Source: Streptococcus henryi DSM 19005 (GTDB lineage: Bacteria > Bacillota > Bacilli > Lactobacillales > Streptococcaceae). From it: DNA of 64,000 bases. Position numbers and translations under genes: made by a program. The stretch spans positions 62,001-126,000 of the forward strand of contig NZ_AQYA01000035.1 of assembly GCF_000376985.1 (NCBI RefSeq), given 5' to 3'. Of the stretch, positions 40,791 to 62,073 are shown piece by piece. Position 1 is the first letter of the stretch. The number at the start of each line of letters is the position of its first letter. The notes under the pieces were generated by a model, which made no database searches, was not told the origin of the DNA, and worked only from the letters and a program-made list of their open reading frames with translations.

Positions 40791-40930
40791 GAATCCAAAT
40801 ATGATATTAATAGATTCCGTCTTAAACGGCTCTGCATTAGGCAGTTGTTGATGCAACTGATTTATCTATTTTCATTAGAATACTTATGGTCTAATTGCAA
40901 ATTTGAACATTTCTTGGTTCTTATGTCTTC

Positions 40931-56710: not shown

Positions 56711-57155
56711 GTCTTTACCTTTTCTAGTTTTTCTTTTTTCCATTTTACCAAAAAATAGCAAAGCAGGCGAGTTTGTTGCTTTCGGCTAACTATAAAACTA
56801 GCAAGAAACTAGAGAGAAAGTACTTAATATGTAATAGAGTCTAGTAGAATTTGTTGGATTCTGGCTCTTTAGTTTCTCTTGCTGGGCAAGCGATGGCAGC
56901 CCACCTAACTAACTGTTCGGATACAACTAATTGATAATATATTTTTTTGAAAATGTTTTCAAAAAATATTGAAAATATATTCATTTCAGTTTATAATTAA
57001 AATATGAAAACGCTGTTTCAGGGCGTTTGATATTGGAGATTTACTTTAACAATTTAACATTATCATATTTATTTTTAGCTAAATTCAAATATAAAGACAT
57101 CTAGTTTAAGAGTGATAGAAATAATATGATAGCAACATAAGGTCATTCAAGTGGT
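56711..57155. other. Upstream region of the cyclic-di-GMP genes
   Basis: This AT-rich stretch has no ORF. It holds a small hairpin AAACGC / GCGTTT (57008-57028) with TATAATT-like sequence just before it near 56991, a possible promoter. No family A or B repeat occurs here. I could not match a cyclic-di-GMP riboswitch. Confidence 0.4.
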
Positions 57156-57184
57156 CTCCTAAGTAGGAAGGGTTTACTAGGAGG
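57156..57184 (+). promoter_or_regulatory. Hairpin sequestering the RBS of the GGDEF gene
   Basis: CTCCTAAGTA (57156-57165) pairs with TACTAGGAG (57175-57183). The second arm contains the AGGAGG ribosome binding site for ATG 57191, so folding should block translation. Confidence 0.6.
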
Positions 57185-57190
57185 TTTTCT

Positions 57191-58345
57191 ATGACATTAT
57201 TAGAAACGATCATCTCTTATGTAGAAATGAATTTCATTGTTTTTACTGGCATCGTGTATATGTTACTTCATCTAAGTTTTAATGATGAAATCAATAAGAG
57301 AGGAAAGTTCTTTTTTATTTTGGCAACTATTATGATGTTGCTAGATATGCTTAGTTTTAATTTTGAACAGTATCTTGCTGCTCAGCCTATGTTTTCAATT
57401 TGGAGACAATTTTGGTCGGTGATTGGCTACAGTTGCCGACCCATTATTTTTCTGGCAATAATATTTTTGAATGACGCTTCTGAAAAATGGACACGCCAGA
57501 AAGTTATCGTTAGTGCAATGGCACTAATCAATCTTTTTCTTTCATTTTCAACTTTCTTTTCTAAAATAGCTTATTGGTACACGATTGATAATCGTTATTA
57601 TAGAGGTCCGCTAGGCTATTACAGTTATATTATTCTTTTAGTTTATCTATTGATACTAGTTATCCAACTATTACATTTGTATAAATCCTATCGATTAACC
57701 TTACAAGTTGTTGTTGGAGGCTATTTAGTTTTACTAACTCTTGCTGGTATTTATTTCAATGCCTTATATACTAGCTCAGGAATTTCAAGAGGATCAATGA
57801 TTGCGGCCATAGTGTTTTACTACGGTTATTATAATTCGGTTCAATATAAAGCAGAGCATCAAAGATATTCTCAAATTGCTAGTCAAGATGGTTTGACTGG
57901 CTTATCTAACCGTTATGCCTATAATCAAATTATCAATGAATTGAAGTTATCAGATGAACCAATTGGATTTTTGATGCTAGATATTGATAAATTCAAGGCA
58001 ATTAATGACGAGTGTGGACATGATATAGGAGATCGTATTTTAAGTAAAGTAGCAGATTATTTACGAATTACTTTTAATGAGACCGAATATGTCTTTCGTA
58101 TAGGAGGAGATGAGTTTGTGGTGTTATTCACCGAACTCAATCAGGATGAGGTTGAACGTATCAGTGATAAGATTGATATGATTAACAAGATGCTTTTAAC
58201 TGAAAATGATACTCTGCCAATCACAAGCATTAGTGCGGGGCTAGTAACTTCGGGTTCAAATAGAATTGAAAAACTTTATGTAGAAGCAGACCGTGCCCTC
58301 TATATAACGAAAAGTAATGGCGGAGCTGGCTGTACGATATTGTAA
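57191..58345 (+). CDS. Membrane GGDEF protein, putative diguanylate cyclase
   Basis: This 384-residue protein has an N-terminal membrane domain with six to seven helices (residues 1 to about 215) and a C-terminal GGDEF domain. The domain starts DGLTGLSNRYAYNQI, has FLMLDIDKFKAINDECGHDIGD, and an intact catalytic motif RIGGDEFVVLF (GGDEF at 305-309). The inhibitory RxxD I-site upstream is absent. It should make cyclic-di-GMP from two GTP, with the membrane domain as a sensor. Its RBS lies in a hairpin. A large GGDEF/EAL gene follows after 208 bases. Such genes are uncommon in streptococci. Confidence 0.85.
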   Translation: MTLLETIISYVEMNFIVFTGIVYMLLHLSFNDEINKRGKFFFILATIMMLLDMLSFNFEQYLAAQPMFSIWRQFWSVIGYSCRPIIFLAIIFLNDASEKWTRQKVIVSAMALINLFLSFSTFFSKIAYWYTIDNRYYRGPLGYYSYIILLVYLLILVIQLLHLYKSYRLTLQVVVGGYLVLLTLAGIYFNALYTSSGISRGSMIAAIVFYYGYYNSVQYKAEHQRYSQIASQDGLTGLSNRYAYNQIINELKLSDEPIGFLMLDIDKFKAINDECGHDIGDRILSKVADYLRITFNETEYVFRIGGDEFVVLFTELNQDEVERISDKIDMINKMLLTENDTLPITSISAGLVTSGSNRIEKLYVEADRALYITKSNGGAGCTIL

Positions 58346-58553
58346 AAAATTCTTTTGATAAATATTTGTAATAAAAAACGAATAATAAGAAAGTAGGAAA
58401 TTTATAAACAGGAGGACACTCCAATTAGTGTAAGTAAAAATATAGTGAATGCTATTTTTCAAATGCATTCAATTAAAATTTCCCAATAAACCATTATTGG
58501 TTGAAAAGTTACACTTTCAAGAAGTTATATGTTATGTGGGAGGTTTTATTTAA

Positions 58554-61500
58554 ATGAGTGATAACTCAATGAAAAAGTTGGATTATCTTCCTGGAGCAGT
58601 TCTTGTCTACCGTGCTGATGAGACCCAAGAAATATTGTATGCTAATCAGAATGTTATTGAACTATTTGGTTGTAATGATATTGATGATTTTAAAGATTAC
58701 ACTGGGAATAGTTTTACAGGTTTAGTCAGTGACGATGAGCTAGAAGGAACTCTTTTTAATATTAATAAACAGATAAATGACGAAACAAGTAATAATTACG
58801 ATCACGTCTTTTATCATATTCAAACCAAGCAAGGTGAGAAGATATACATTGAAGATTATGGGAAGCTTGTTGATGATGAAGATTTTGGTTTAGTTTACTA
58901 TGCTTTTCTTGTTTTGCCTAAGGTGAAATTGACTGAAGCTTCAAGGGATGAAGTGACCGGATTATTAAATATGCGTTATCTGTTAAATATCATGGATAAG
59001 AAGCGACAATCGAATACTAAACAGTTACTTGATAAAACAGTTAAGCATGTTGCGATATATTTTAATATCTTAAATTTTAAAATGTATAATCGTTATTATG
59101 GATTTGAACAAGGTAATAATTGTTTGAAGGAGATAGGAGATATCCTAACAGATGTCTTTAAGGTCAATACTATAGCTAGATTTTCAGATGATCATTTTGT
59201 TGTTCTATATGATGGTAATGATGAGATTGAAAATATTAAGGAAGTACACAGACGTGTAGCTGCTTTAGATGATAGATTTCAATTATACATTGATGCGGGT
59301 GTTTATTATTCAGATTACACTAATCCAACAAGTTTAGATTGTGATTTAGCAAAATTAGCCTGTGATAGTATTAAGAATTCTTTGACAGACTATTATGCTG
59401 TTTATAGTGACAAGCTTAAGGAAGTGCAAGAATTAAGAAAATACATTACTGATAATATTGATAAGGCTATTAAAAATGGTTATATTAAAATATATTTTCA
59501 ACCAGTTGTTCGCGCTTTAACTGGCGAACTTTGCAGTATGGAGGCTTTGACAAGATGGATAGACCCTGAACATGGTTTTCTATCACCTGGCGACTTCATA
59601 CCAATTCTTGAGGAAAATAACCTTATTTACAAGTTGGATTTATTTGTTATCAATGAGGTTGCAAAACATTTAAAAGAGCAAAACGATAATAACAAACCAA
59701 TTGTTCCTGTATCCCTCAATATTTCACGAATGGATTTCGCCATGTGTGACCCTTTTGCAGAGGTTGAAAAAGTAGTGACTCAATATGGTCTCGTCCGTGA
59801 ATGGATAACTGTCGAGATTACAGAATCAGCTATTGCAACTGATGCTGAAACAATACAATCTGAAATTGAAAAATTTCATAAAGGCGGATTCGATGTCTGG
59901 ATGGATGATTTTGGAAGTGGCTACTCTTCGCTTAACACCCTAAAAGATTTTGATTTTGATGAAATCAAGATTGATATGGCTTTTTTGCGAAATATGAACG
60001 ACCGTTCAAAAAAAATTCTGTCCTCGGCAGTTCGAATGGCTAAACAAATTGGTATCCACACACTTGCTGAAGGTGTCGAGACAAAGGAACATGTTGATTT
60101 CCTTAGAGAAATTGGCTGTGAGAAAATTCAAGGATACTTTTTTGGTAAGCCAGCCCCTTATGAAGAAGTAATGCAGCATATTAAAGATCAAGGAATAGAA
60201 GTTGAAACTCAAACAATGAAGGCTTTTTATGAAAAAGTTGGAATGGTTGACTTTATGACAGATCGTTCACTGGCCCTATTTTATGACGATGGTAAAAAGT
60301 TTAAAACTGTTTTTGTGAACAGAGAATACTGGAATGACTTGGGGTCACGTGAAGCCATTATGGCCATGTCTGATGATATTATAAATTCAGCAGACTCCAT
60401 GTTGAGACCTTCAATTCGTAACTTAGCAGAGAAAGCCAAAAAAAGTTCTAAAGATGAGTCAATTGATTTGGTTTATAATGGTCGTTACTATCGTTTACGA
60501 ATGAAAGTAATTGCTAACAGTATTGATGGCTGGATGCATCGCGTTTCATTAGAAGATATTACTTTTAATGAGATAAAAGAGCGAACATCAGCTTTAAATA
60601 GCGTTGTAAGAAATGTCGCTACACTCTATGAATCAATTTATCATGTTGATTTTGCAACTGATAAGGCTGAATTAGTTTATACAAATAGAGATGACCAGAG
60701 CGTAGGTGATTTTTATGAAAGCTTTACCAAAGCTCACATAGTCCAACACTTAGAATTTTATGACGGAGACCGTGAAAAGTATGAAAATTTCCTTACTTTA
60801 GATACCATAACACGTCGTATTTTAGAGGTTGGAGAAGCTCATGTGTCAGATATTTTCCGAATTAAGGGACGAGACGGCAATTACCATTGGAAAGAGATTA
60901 TTATCATTGCTTTACCTAGTCCTAGCCGTACGCAATTTTTATTGTGTATCAAACCATCAGTTTTAGAAGGAAAAGCTGATATGACCGGTCTGACAAGCAA
61001 AGATTCGGAGACTTCAAGAAATAATAATCAGCTTAAAGCAAACCCAGCTCAGAGTTGTAATTATTGGAAAGAATTGATGAAGAAGACTGACATTAAGTTT
61101 TTCTGGAAGGATAAAGAGCGTCGCTTTCTTGGTGCAAGTCAGTCATTCCTAGATTACTACAATATAAAATCTATAGATGAAATTATTGGTAAAACTGATG
61201 AGGACTTGAAGTGGCATATTGATGACATTAACTACAAGTCTGATGAAGAGGCTGTTTTGGCTACTGGGAAACCTATCTATCATTCTGCTGGCCAGAATAT
61301 CATAAATGGTGTTATTCATAACGTTTCAGCCACTAAAGTTCCAATGTATGATAATGGAAAAATATCAGGTATAATCGGCTATTTTATCGATATTGACGAA
61401 GTTCTTTCTGAAAATGAGAAAAATTTCCAAGAGTTACATATTGACACTTCTACCGGTGTTATGAATTCACGTGGATTTTTAATGTCTTGTATTCAGTACG

Positions 61501-61910
61501 AGGACAATTATCGCATACACAACCAAAATTATAAACTTGTTATTTTGGAAATAAAAGGTTACCATCATATGTTGACGTCATATGGGAAAGAAGTGGCTGA
61601 ACACATGATGCAAGAAGTTGCTTCAATCTTACAAAAACATTCACAAAGAGGTGCTACGATTTCAAGGATTGGTAGTTGGCATTTTGCTATACTGGAAAAA
61701 GGTAGTAATTTTACTGAAATGGACAATTATGTTCAAAATGCGATTGAAGAAATTATGGCAGTGAGGACAATAGATGGATTTAGAGCGACACTTTATGTCA
61801 ACTCGTGTATGATTTTGGGATCCGATCAAGAAAGTTCAATTGGATTTATCCACTTAATTGATCAAATCTTCTCAAATATTAATGCTGATAAAATAGAGAA
61901 TATAAAATAA
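58554..61910 (+). CDS. Multidomain PAS-GGDEF-EAL-PAS-GGDEF protein, putative cyclic-di-GMP phosphodiesterase
   Basis: This 1118-residue soluble protein contains, in order: a PAS-like domain (about 1-120), a degenerate GGDEF (motif replaced by SDDHF, 211-215), a complete-looking EAL domain (EAL 330-332, EITES, DDFGSGYSS with D451-D452, EGVET 506-510, QGYFFGKP), two to three PAS-like regions (about 570-960), and a second degenerate GGDEF (GSWHF, 1040-1044). The EAL residues for metal and catalysis appear present, so hydrolysis of cyclic-di-GMP is likely. The GGDEF domains may bind GTP or serve for dimerisation. It pairs with the upstream cyclase. Confidence 0.85.
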   Translation: MSDNSMKKLDYLPGAVLVYRADETQEILYANQNVIELFGCNDIDDFKDYTGNSFTGLVSDDELEGTLFNINKQINDETSNNYDHVFYHIQTKQGEKIYIEDYGKLVDDEDFGLVYYAFLVLPKVKLTEASRDEVTGLLNMRYLLNIMDKKRQSNTKQLLDKTVKHVAIYFNILNFKMYNRYYGFEQGNNCLKEIGDILTDVFKVNTIARFSDDHFVVLYDGNDEIENIKEVHRRVAALDDRFQLYIDAGVYYSDYTNPTSLDCDLAKLACDSIKNSLTDYYAVYSDKLKEVQELRKYITDNIDKAIKNGYIKIYFQPVVRALTGELCSMEALTRWIDPEHGFLSPGDFIPILEENNLIYKLDLFVINEVAKHLKEQNDNNKPIVPVSLNISRMDFAMCDPFAEVEKVVTQYGLVREWITVEITESAIATDAETIQSEIEKFHKGGFDVWMDDFGSGYSSLNTLKDFDFDEIKIDMAFLRNMNDRSKKILSSAVRMAKQIGIHTLAEGVETKEHVDFLREIGCEKIQGYFFGKPAPYEEVMQHIKDQGIEVETQTMKAFYEKVGMVDFMTDRSLALFYDDGKKFKTVFVNREYWNDLGSREAIMAMSDDIINSADSMLRPSIRNLAEKAKKSSKDESIDLVYNGRYYRLRMKVIANSIDGWMHRVSLEDITFNEIKERTSALNSVVRNVATLYESIYHVDFATDKAELVYTNRDDQSVGDFYESFTKAHIVQHLEFYDGDREKYENFLTLDTITRRILEVGEAHVSDIFRIKGRDGNYHWKEIIIIALPSPSRTQFLLCIKPSVLEGKADMTGLTSKDSETSRNNNQLKANPAQSCNYWKELMKKTDIKFFWKDKERRFLGASQSFLDYYNIKSIDEIIGKTDEDLKWHIDDINYKSDEEAVLATGKPIYHSAGQNIINGVIHNVSATKVPMYDNGKISGIIGYFIDIDEVLSENEKNFQELHIDTSTGVMNSRGFLMSCIQYEDNYRIHNQNYKLVILEIKGYHHMLTSYGKEVAEHMMQEVASILQKHSQRGATISRIGSWHFAILEKGSNFTEMDNYVQNAIEEIMAVRTIDGFRATLYVNSCMILGSDQESSIGFIHLIDQIFSNINADKIENIK

Positions 61911-61946
61911 AAACCATTTCGTATAGGGTTTGTAACATAAAAATGA

Positions 61947-61975
61947 GGTTAGGGACTTTTTCCTAGCCCTTTTTG
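61947..61975 (+). terminator. Terminator of the cyclic-di-GMP module
   Basis: GGTTAGG and CCTAGCC pair (one wobble) and are followed by CTTTTT. Confidence 0.72.
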
Positions 61976-62073
61976 ATGAGATATTTATTTACTGATATGC
62001 TAGATATTAGTAAATAAAAAAAACGGAAATTGATACAAAAAATGAAAACTTATTAATTTCGTTAAAATTGCCA

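Follow-up and report, generated by a model that had tools for sequence, protein, structure and literature searches.

Two adjoining genes for enzymes of cyclic-di-GMP metabolism in Streptococcus henryi DSM 19005 raise the question of what such enzymes serve in a genus thought to do without this messenger. The premise that streptococci do not use it is one found in print: a passage of a 2014 paper says that streptococci have no cyclic-di-GMP pathways (PMC4125290), and a passage of a 2023 paper says that cyclic-di-GMP production has never been found in lactic acid bacteria (PMC10243994). The genes lie near the end of a stretch of 64,000 nucleotides (positions 62,001 to 126,000 of contig NZ_AQYA01000035.1; hereafter the window), and an original prediction, made from the letters of the window, had described them as a self-contained on/off pair without visible effector and as a possible new pathway. 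We consider it probable that the pair is a working synthase and phosphodiesterase, acquired laterally, whose output goes through a receptor beyond the families searched. The sequences, the residues and the inventory of the genome at the level of those families, in which no PilZ synthase was found, are direct observations; we infer from them the activity, the co-transcription, the direction of transfer and the output.

The upstream gene has the following features.
57191..58345, plus strand: diguanylate cyclase gene, an open reading frame of 384 amino acids (the window cyclase)
57209..57751, plus strand: six predicted membrane spans, residues 7-187, from a hydropathy scan; no Pfam match in this part
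57878..58321, plus strand: catalytic GGDEF domain, residues 230-377, from Pfam, the alignment to 6zxm and motif reading

The window cyclase has a full GGDEF domain with an intact active-site motif at codons 305-309. GGDEF is its sole Pfam match, with an E value of 2.6e-32 over profile positions 1-158 of 161, and solved GGDEF proteins are also matched (e.g. 6zxm, E 3.4e-22). The RxxD inhibitory site, which is common among GGDEF cyclases and not required for membership, is replaced by NETE at the position given by the alignment to 6zxm; it is also missing from 12 cyclases with intact motif in other genomes of the genus. Judged from its sequence, the protein very probably makes cyclic-di-GMP. It would be held in the membrane by the six spans and, since it has no product-inhibition site, would be expected to stay active as long as its signal lasts, unless the phosphodiesterase removes the product.

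The downstream gene encodes a much longer protein with the following parts, where the label PAS-like on segments without Pfam match is a reading of the strand pattern in an AlphaFold2 model.
58554..61910, plus strand: cyclic-di-GMP phosphodiesterase gene, an open reading frame for a PAS/GGDEF/EAL protein of 1118 amino acids
58602..58883, plus strand: N-terminal PAS domain, residues 17-110, from Pfam PAS_3 (E 2.4e-06, above cut-off), PAS_9 (E 1.7e-05, below cut-off) and PAS-like strands in the model
58938..59402, plus strand: degenerate GGDEF domain 1, residues 129-283, from Pfam GGDEF over 129-242, the motif SDDHF at 211 and the model
59454..60152, plus strand: EAL phosphodiesterase domain, residues 301-533, from Pfam EAL (E 2e-64, profile positions 3-236 of 236)
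60273..60956, plus strand: two further PAS-like segments, residues 574-801, from the secondary-structure pattern of the model, the second with low confidence; no Pfam match
61095..61391, plus strand: C-terminal PAS-like domain, residues 848-946, read from the model with a predicted local distance difference test (pLDDT) score of 68-91 by ten-residue block; no Pfam match
61443..61823, plus strand: degenerate GGDEF domain 2, residues 964-1090, from the second Pfam GGDEF stretch, the motif GSWHF at 1040 and the model

In an alignment of 18 rows, residues E330, N389, E421/E424, D451, D452, K472, E506 and Q526 are present and invariant; we take these to be the catalytic residues of the EAL domain, and on this reading of the sequence the protein keeps the complete set. 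The intact GGDEF motif of a bifunctional GGDEF-EAL enzyme is found at neither place (SDDHF and GSWHF). Because both GGDEF domains are degenerate, a point absent from the original prediction, the protein is by sequence a phosphodiesterase and not a bifunctional enzyme, and it very probably breaks cyclic-di-GMP. Its solved relative is DosP (E 1e-45 over residues 129-539), and it resembles the DosP-type PAS-GGDEF-EAL phosphodiesterases (9cmf, 9bgv) in the order of GGDEF and EAL, but differs from them by about 570 extra residues with PAS-like domains and the second degenerate GGDEF. With a mean pLDDT of 76.8 and a predicted template-modelling score of 0.47, the model allows the domains to be read and their arrangement not. 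The enzyme may be a soluble multi-sensor protein, in which the PAS and the two dead GGDEF domains would tune the EAL domain. Open reading frames, which have the same ends as originally predicted, Pfam matches and motifs thus agree in the description of a membrane protein with intact GGDEF adjoined by an EAL protein of 1118 residues.

The pair is not the whole of the cyclic-di-GMP equipment of this genome (2,422,509 bases in 37 contigs, the pair being on a contig of 201,092 bases). GGDEF matches above cut-off are four in number, namely the window cyclase, the two degenerate domains and a PAS-GGDEF cyclase on contig C22, and EAL matches are two, namely the window phosphodiesterase and a protein on contig C14. 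A pel locus is also present. The names rplS, aroA, trmB and rimP used for neighbours were read off protein sequences and not taken from a family search.
L027:6613-8565, contig C14, between rplS and aroA and behind tRNA-Arg: second EAL protein, 650 amino acids, with a hydrophobic N-terminus and EAL motifs intact by eye
L028:7493-8587, contig C22, between trmB and rimP and behind tRNA-Ser: second cyclase (PAS-GGDEF), orthologue of the trmB-rimP cyclase of the genus
L115:4976-16920, contig C28: Gram-positive pel locus with PelD, PelE, deacetylase, PelF-type, PelG, CotH, VTC, DUF4956 and GalE-like genes

The second cyclase and the second EAL protein contradict the description of the pair as self-contained; the four enzymes may together form a network, with two cyclases on one side and two phosphodiesterases on the other. 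In one sentence, a 2023 review credits S. henryi with a complex phosphodiesterase and with two cyclases, one of which has a distinct context (PMC10333796). The set found here likewise has a pair of cyclases, of which one is differently placed, and a phosphodiesterase of several domains; it fits that account of S. henryi, and not the S. salivarius group to which the original prediction had looked. The published sentence itself gives no sequence, adjacency or second EAL protein and has no word on a missing synthase. No functional study of the S. henryi cyclic-di-GMP genes was found in the literature searched, which misses most subscription papers.

How unusual this equipment is was seen from a survey of 284 genomes of the same genus, this one included and kinship among species ignored. 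GGDEF exceeds the Pfam cut-off in 14 genomes (16 at E 0.001) and EAL in three, namely this genome, G150 and G151 (five at E 0.001), in accordance with the claim that these enzymes are rare in streptococci. Weak GGDEF matches in G048 and G282 look by eye like GdpP-type DHH proteins and were therefore dropped from the cyclase count. This genome alone has more than one GGDEF match, and only here were a large EAL frame and a large GGDEF-EAL protein found; the EAL frames in the other genomes are short, with 130-271 residues.

In these streptococci the cyclase usually comes with a target. The loci of all 13 other GGDEF genomes were compared, and the typical operon, for which a full Pfam run was made at one locus (L073), consists of the cyclase, a GT2/GtrA protein, a synthase of about 745 amino acids that has PilZ at its C-terminus, and a large membrane protein to which Pfam gave no match. 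The gene trmB is directly upstream of the cyclase in eight of the 13 loci; tRNA-Ser, looked for at two of them, was found in L073 and not in L072. PilZ is matched in 11 of the 284 genomes, all of which belong to the 14 with GGDEF over cut-off, and the motif RxxxR...[D/N]xSxxG is present in 11 of the 13 loci. The three GGDEF genomes without PilZ are this genome, G003, in which the synthase frame runs off the contig end, and G081, in which the frames of cyclase and synthase are broken; the motif is missing in the latter two loci. According to the review, which cites Liu et al. 2020, Streptococcus received the trmB-rimP module by horizontal transfer (PMC10333796); a passage of another paper describes the S. 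gallolyticus operon as a putative hemicellulose locus (PMC12445087). With PilZ in 11 of the 14 GGDEF genomes of the survey and a streptococcal network outlined in the review (PMC10333796), the suggestion of a new pathway on the ground that streptococci lack the messenger is not supported.

Variants of this arrangement were seen as well. In G150 (L078) and G151 (L080), a single cluster unites the cyclase, the PilZ synthase and EAL genes of short length, of which G151 has two, and trmB does not adjoin the cyclase. Elsewhere the trmB-rimP module is decaying: besides the broken frames of G081 (L077), there is a stop in the cyclase frame of G231 (L082).

The pair of S. henryi might accordingly be thought to belong to the known streptococcal module and, like that of other species, to have the PilZ polysaccharide synthase as its target. 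The tie between PilZ and GGDEF across the genus would favour this, as would the EAL genes beside the cyclase in G150 and G151. However, PilZ has no match in the whole assembly by Pfam search, in agreement with the remark of the original prediction that no PilZ protein is visible, and Glyco_trans_2_3 has none in the genome; the positive controls of these searches matched in 5 of 14 and 12 of 14 genomes, respectively. A protein search for a homologue of the PilZ polysaccharide synthase, run without positive control, also gave no match in the genome. The window pair further differs from the trmB-rimP module by its location away from trmB and rimP, its separate ancestry in the tree described below, its phosphodiesterase, and the lack of genes for a GT2/GtrA protein, a PilZ synthase and a large membrane protein.

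The C22 cyclase, on the other hand, is like that module, being an orthologue of its GGDEF cyclase at the same tRNA-Ser place between trmB and rimP. The three downstream polysaccharide genes are not with it, and 344 bases separate it from the rimP frame. No remnant of the synthase operon is among the matches listed for this interval, which are rimP, the cyclase's own end and short matches. Three cyclase rows that match 24 residues on the opposite strand (E 3e-4 to 1e-3) were taken for chance. The genus-typical cyclase would thus appear to persist without its PilZ polysaccharide synthase, and an action of the pair on such a synthase is very improbable, since the assembly already contradicts it, short of a synthase hidden in an assembly gap.

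Other standard receptors were searched for in the genome. MshEN gave no match (its control matched in 5 of 14 genomes), and apart from the window phosphodiesterase and both cyclases Pfam found no GGDEF protein. Class I and class II cyclic-di-GMP riboswitches gave no match either, and the control genomes were equally silent. The output would have to go through a receptor that the searched families do not show. It would not run via the PilZ synthase of other streptococci, and an exopolysaccharide, that of the pel locus, is the leading candidate.

In the pel locus, the deacetylase, PelF-type glycosyltransferase, PelG, CotH, VTC and DUF4956 were named by Pfam, PelD and PelE by place and size, and the GalE-like gene by eye. 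An association of the locus with biofilm and adhesion has been described for S. thermophilus and S. salivarius (PMC4452758; PMC7112168). That cyclic-di-GMP controls Pel exopolysaccharide, through PelD in a diverged form or through a different subunit, is suggested by the presence of this locus and by B. cereus, where the Pel system has PelD as its receptor for cyclic-di-GMP (PMC7112168). The same paper reports, in the part concerned, that streptococcal PelD has no GGDEF receptor domain, and its authors hold that Pel there is regulated otherwise or not post-translationally. PelD of this genome agrees with that report: Pfam gives no GGDEF in it up to E 5, and a single-sequence hhalign comparison of its C-terminus with GGDEF found nothing, a weak test in which shuffles scored as high and which had no positive control. 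A PelD C-terminus without GGDEF speaks against Pel as the direct target, and we regard control of Pel through PelD or another of its subunits as rather unlikely.

A receptor might also be sought at the level of RNA, and for this the layout of the locus is of use.
56969..56997, plus strand: promoter-like site (TTGAAA, 17 nucleotides, TATAAT) ahead of the cyclase gene, 11/12 matches in a consensus scan; suggestive only
58346..58553, plus strand: leader of the phosphodiesterase gene, 208 bases, with a predicted hairpin that takes in the ribosome-binding site
61947..61968, plus strand: terminator-like hairpin after the phosphodiesterase gene, a 9-pair stem followed by a T run

The consensus scan of the region, which is weak evidence for either kind of signal, ranks the promoter-like site as the best of 35 (shuffles average 29.8) and gives five terminator-like sites against 2.0 in shuffles, three of which are inside the cyclase gene; none is listed between the two genes. 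Co-transcription of the cyclase and phosphodiesterase genes is plausible, and they would probably be read as one transcript. Folded with the start of its gene (58346-58570), the leader reaches -44.4 kcal/mol (z -3.0), which one of 200 shuffles equals; the sequence ahead of the cyclase gene is at chance level in its folding (z -0.95). No Rfam family was found for the leader, and Rfam over the locus gave one match at chance level. Its long hairpin with the ribosome-binding site is a possible translational switch on the predicted folding. Taken together, we put forward tentatively, and with somewhat less than an even chance, that this four-enzyme network without PilZ synthase uses a type of receptor outside the family libraries. 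This might be PelD in a diverged form or a different subunit of Pel, a transcription factor, or RNA, for example the phosphodiesterase leader.

The origin of the pair was examined through both proteins. The C22 cyclase shows 45-54% identity over 251-350 residues to the cyclases of nine of the 13 other loci; of the remaining four, G003 shows 37%, G150 and G151 32%, and the interrupted frame of G231 matches in two pieces with 50% and 44%. The match of the window cyclase to genus cyclases is confined to the part after about residue 187, with about 28-34% identity; clostridial cyclases are matched with 38-41% over 154-179 residues. In a tree of 28 GGDEF domains, in which the G231 cyclase has no row, the C22 cyclase groups with 12 genus cyclases (support 98/99), and the window cyclase, with long branches flagged, is outside this clade. 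The tree suggests that cyclases entered the genus at least twice, by separate routes. An origin from a mobile element found no backing: as a query against plasmids and phages, the window cyclase found no record with at least 80% query cover, the rows listed reaching 50% at most.

For the phosphodiesterase, 40 relatives from named genomes were compared, a search from which this genome itself may be left out. Five of the 40 loci have near full-length relatives, extending from residue 20 or earlier to at least residue 1092 with 33-38% identity in the best segment; these are from Butyrivibrio, Acetitomaculum and three Lachnospiraceae, and one is split in two open reading frames. On these sequence comparisons, the pair was most likely acquired laterally from gut clostridia of Lachnospiraceae type, separately from the genus-typical streptococcal cyclase. 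That the relatives of the phosphodiesterase are mostly clostridial could also be explained by a chimeric contig or contamination with clostridial DNA. This is extremely improbable, since the pair lies inside its large contig amid ordinary chromosomal genes, the listed contamination is 0.23%, the identity to full-length relatives is 38% at best, and the review gives a similar enzyme set for S. henryi (PMC10333796).

The genes flanking the pair are an Exo_endo_phos-family gene and, downstream, a gene for a luciferase-like (LLM) oxidoreductase. The latter gene has a close copy in one of the 40 relatives besides this genome (G078, 66%), where the context differs, so that neither an insertion site nor an empty site could be shown. 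The guanine-plus-cytosine (GC) content of 57001-62000 is 31-36%, below most of the window. Another low-GC stretch, at 38-41 kb, has on the minus strand (40793-40877) a match to a RatA-like RNA antitoxin, with an Rfam score of 49.5 against a gathering score of 49.

Several observations weigh against lateral acquisition from the Lachnospiraceae type of a pair with a working output, in addition to those on PelD. The placement of the window cyclase in the tree was flagged as a possible long-branch artefact. Partial relatives of the phosphodiesterase are found also in Oscillospiraceae, Coriobacteria, a metagenome-assembled genome labelled Succinivibrio and other gut and rumen lineages, and the donor is unsure because the nearest relatives of either protein in the compared loci are only about 33-40% identical. 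The pair was seen in one genome only, so nothing shows its maintenance by selection.

The genes could then be recent arrivals without working output, heading for decay. An architecture present in one of 284 genomes, the low GC and the lack of a receptor in the searches made are in keeping with this, and the broken or interrupted frames of G081 and G231 are precedents at the trmB-rimP module. Against it, both frames of the pair are unbroken over 1502 codons together and retain the GGDEF motif and the EAL residues named above, and the genome has open frames for two further enzymes; we therefore judge impending decay to be unlikely. A functional pair with an output through a receptor beyond the families searched is the reading that we retain.

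Comparable systems are described for other Firmicutes. In Lactobacillus acidophilus, also a lactic acid bacterium, genes for a cyclase and an EAL phosphodiesterase are together in the dgcA-pdeA operon with gts, and the role of receptor falls to PdeB, which is an EAL protein of degenerate kind next to a BcsA-like synthase (PMC6123363). Unlike this, both EAL domains here keep the catalytic motifs (that of C14 by eye) and no Glyco_trans_2_3 synthase was found. The PssA-E proteins of Listeria monocytogenes are likewise a Firmicute cyclic-di-GMP network, which drives an exopolysaccharide through PssE, a GGDEF protein with I-site, as receptor (PMC4125290), whereas here Pfam gave no further GGDEF protein.

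As a report of cyclic-di-GMP in streptococci, this analysis adds little to what is in print; the system is of a known kind, and such a set has already been noted for S. henryi (PMC10333796). What the analysis contributes are the missing PilZ synthase, the lack of any PilZ, MshEN or Glyco_trans_2_3 match, the full-length phosphodiesterase relatives of Lachnospiraceae type, and a pel locus whose PelD shows no GGDEF. The C22 locus suggests that an enzyme of this kind can stand without its usual target. The point deserving attention is the mismatch between four enzymes with open frames and the families searched, in which no known receptor was found. With two cyclases, two phosphodiesterases and none of the standard receptors searched for, S. 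henryi offers a small and tractable place in which to seek a new cyclic-di-GMP receptor.

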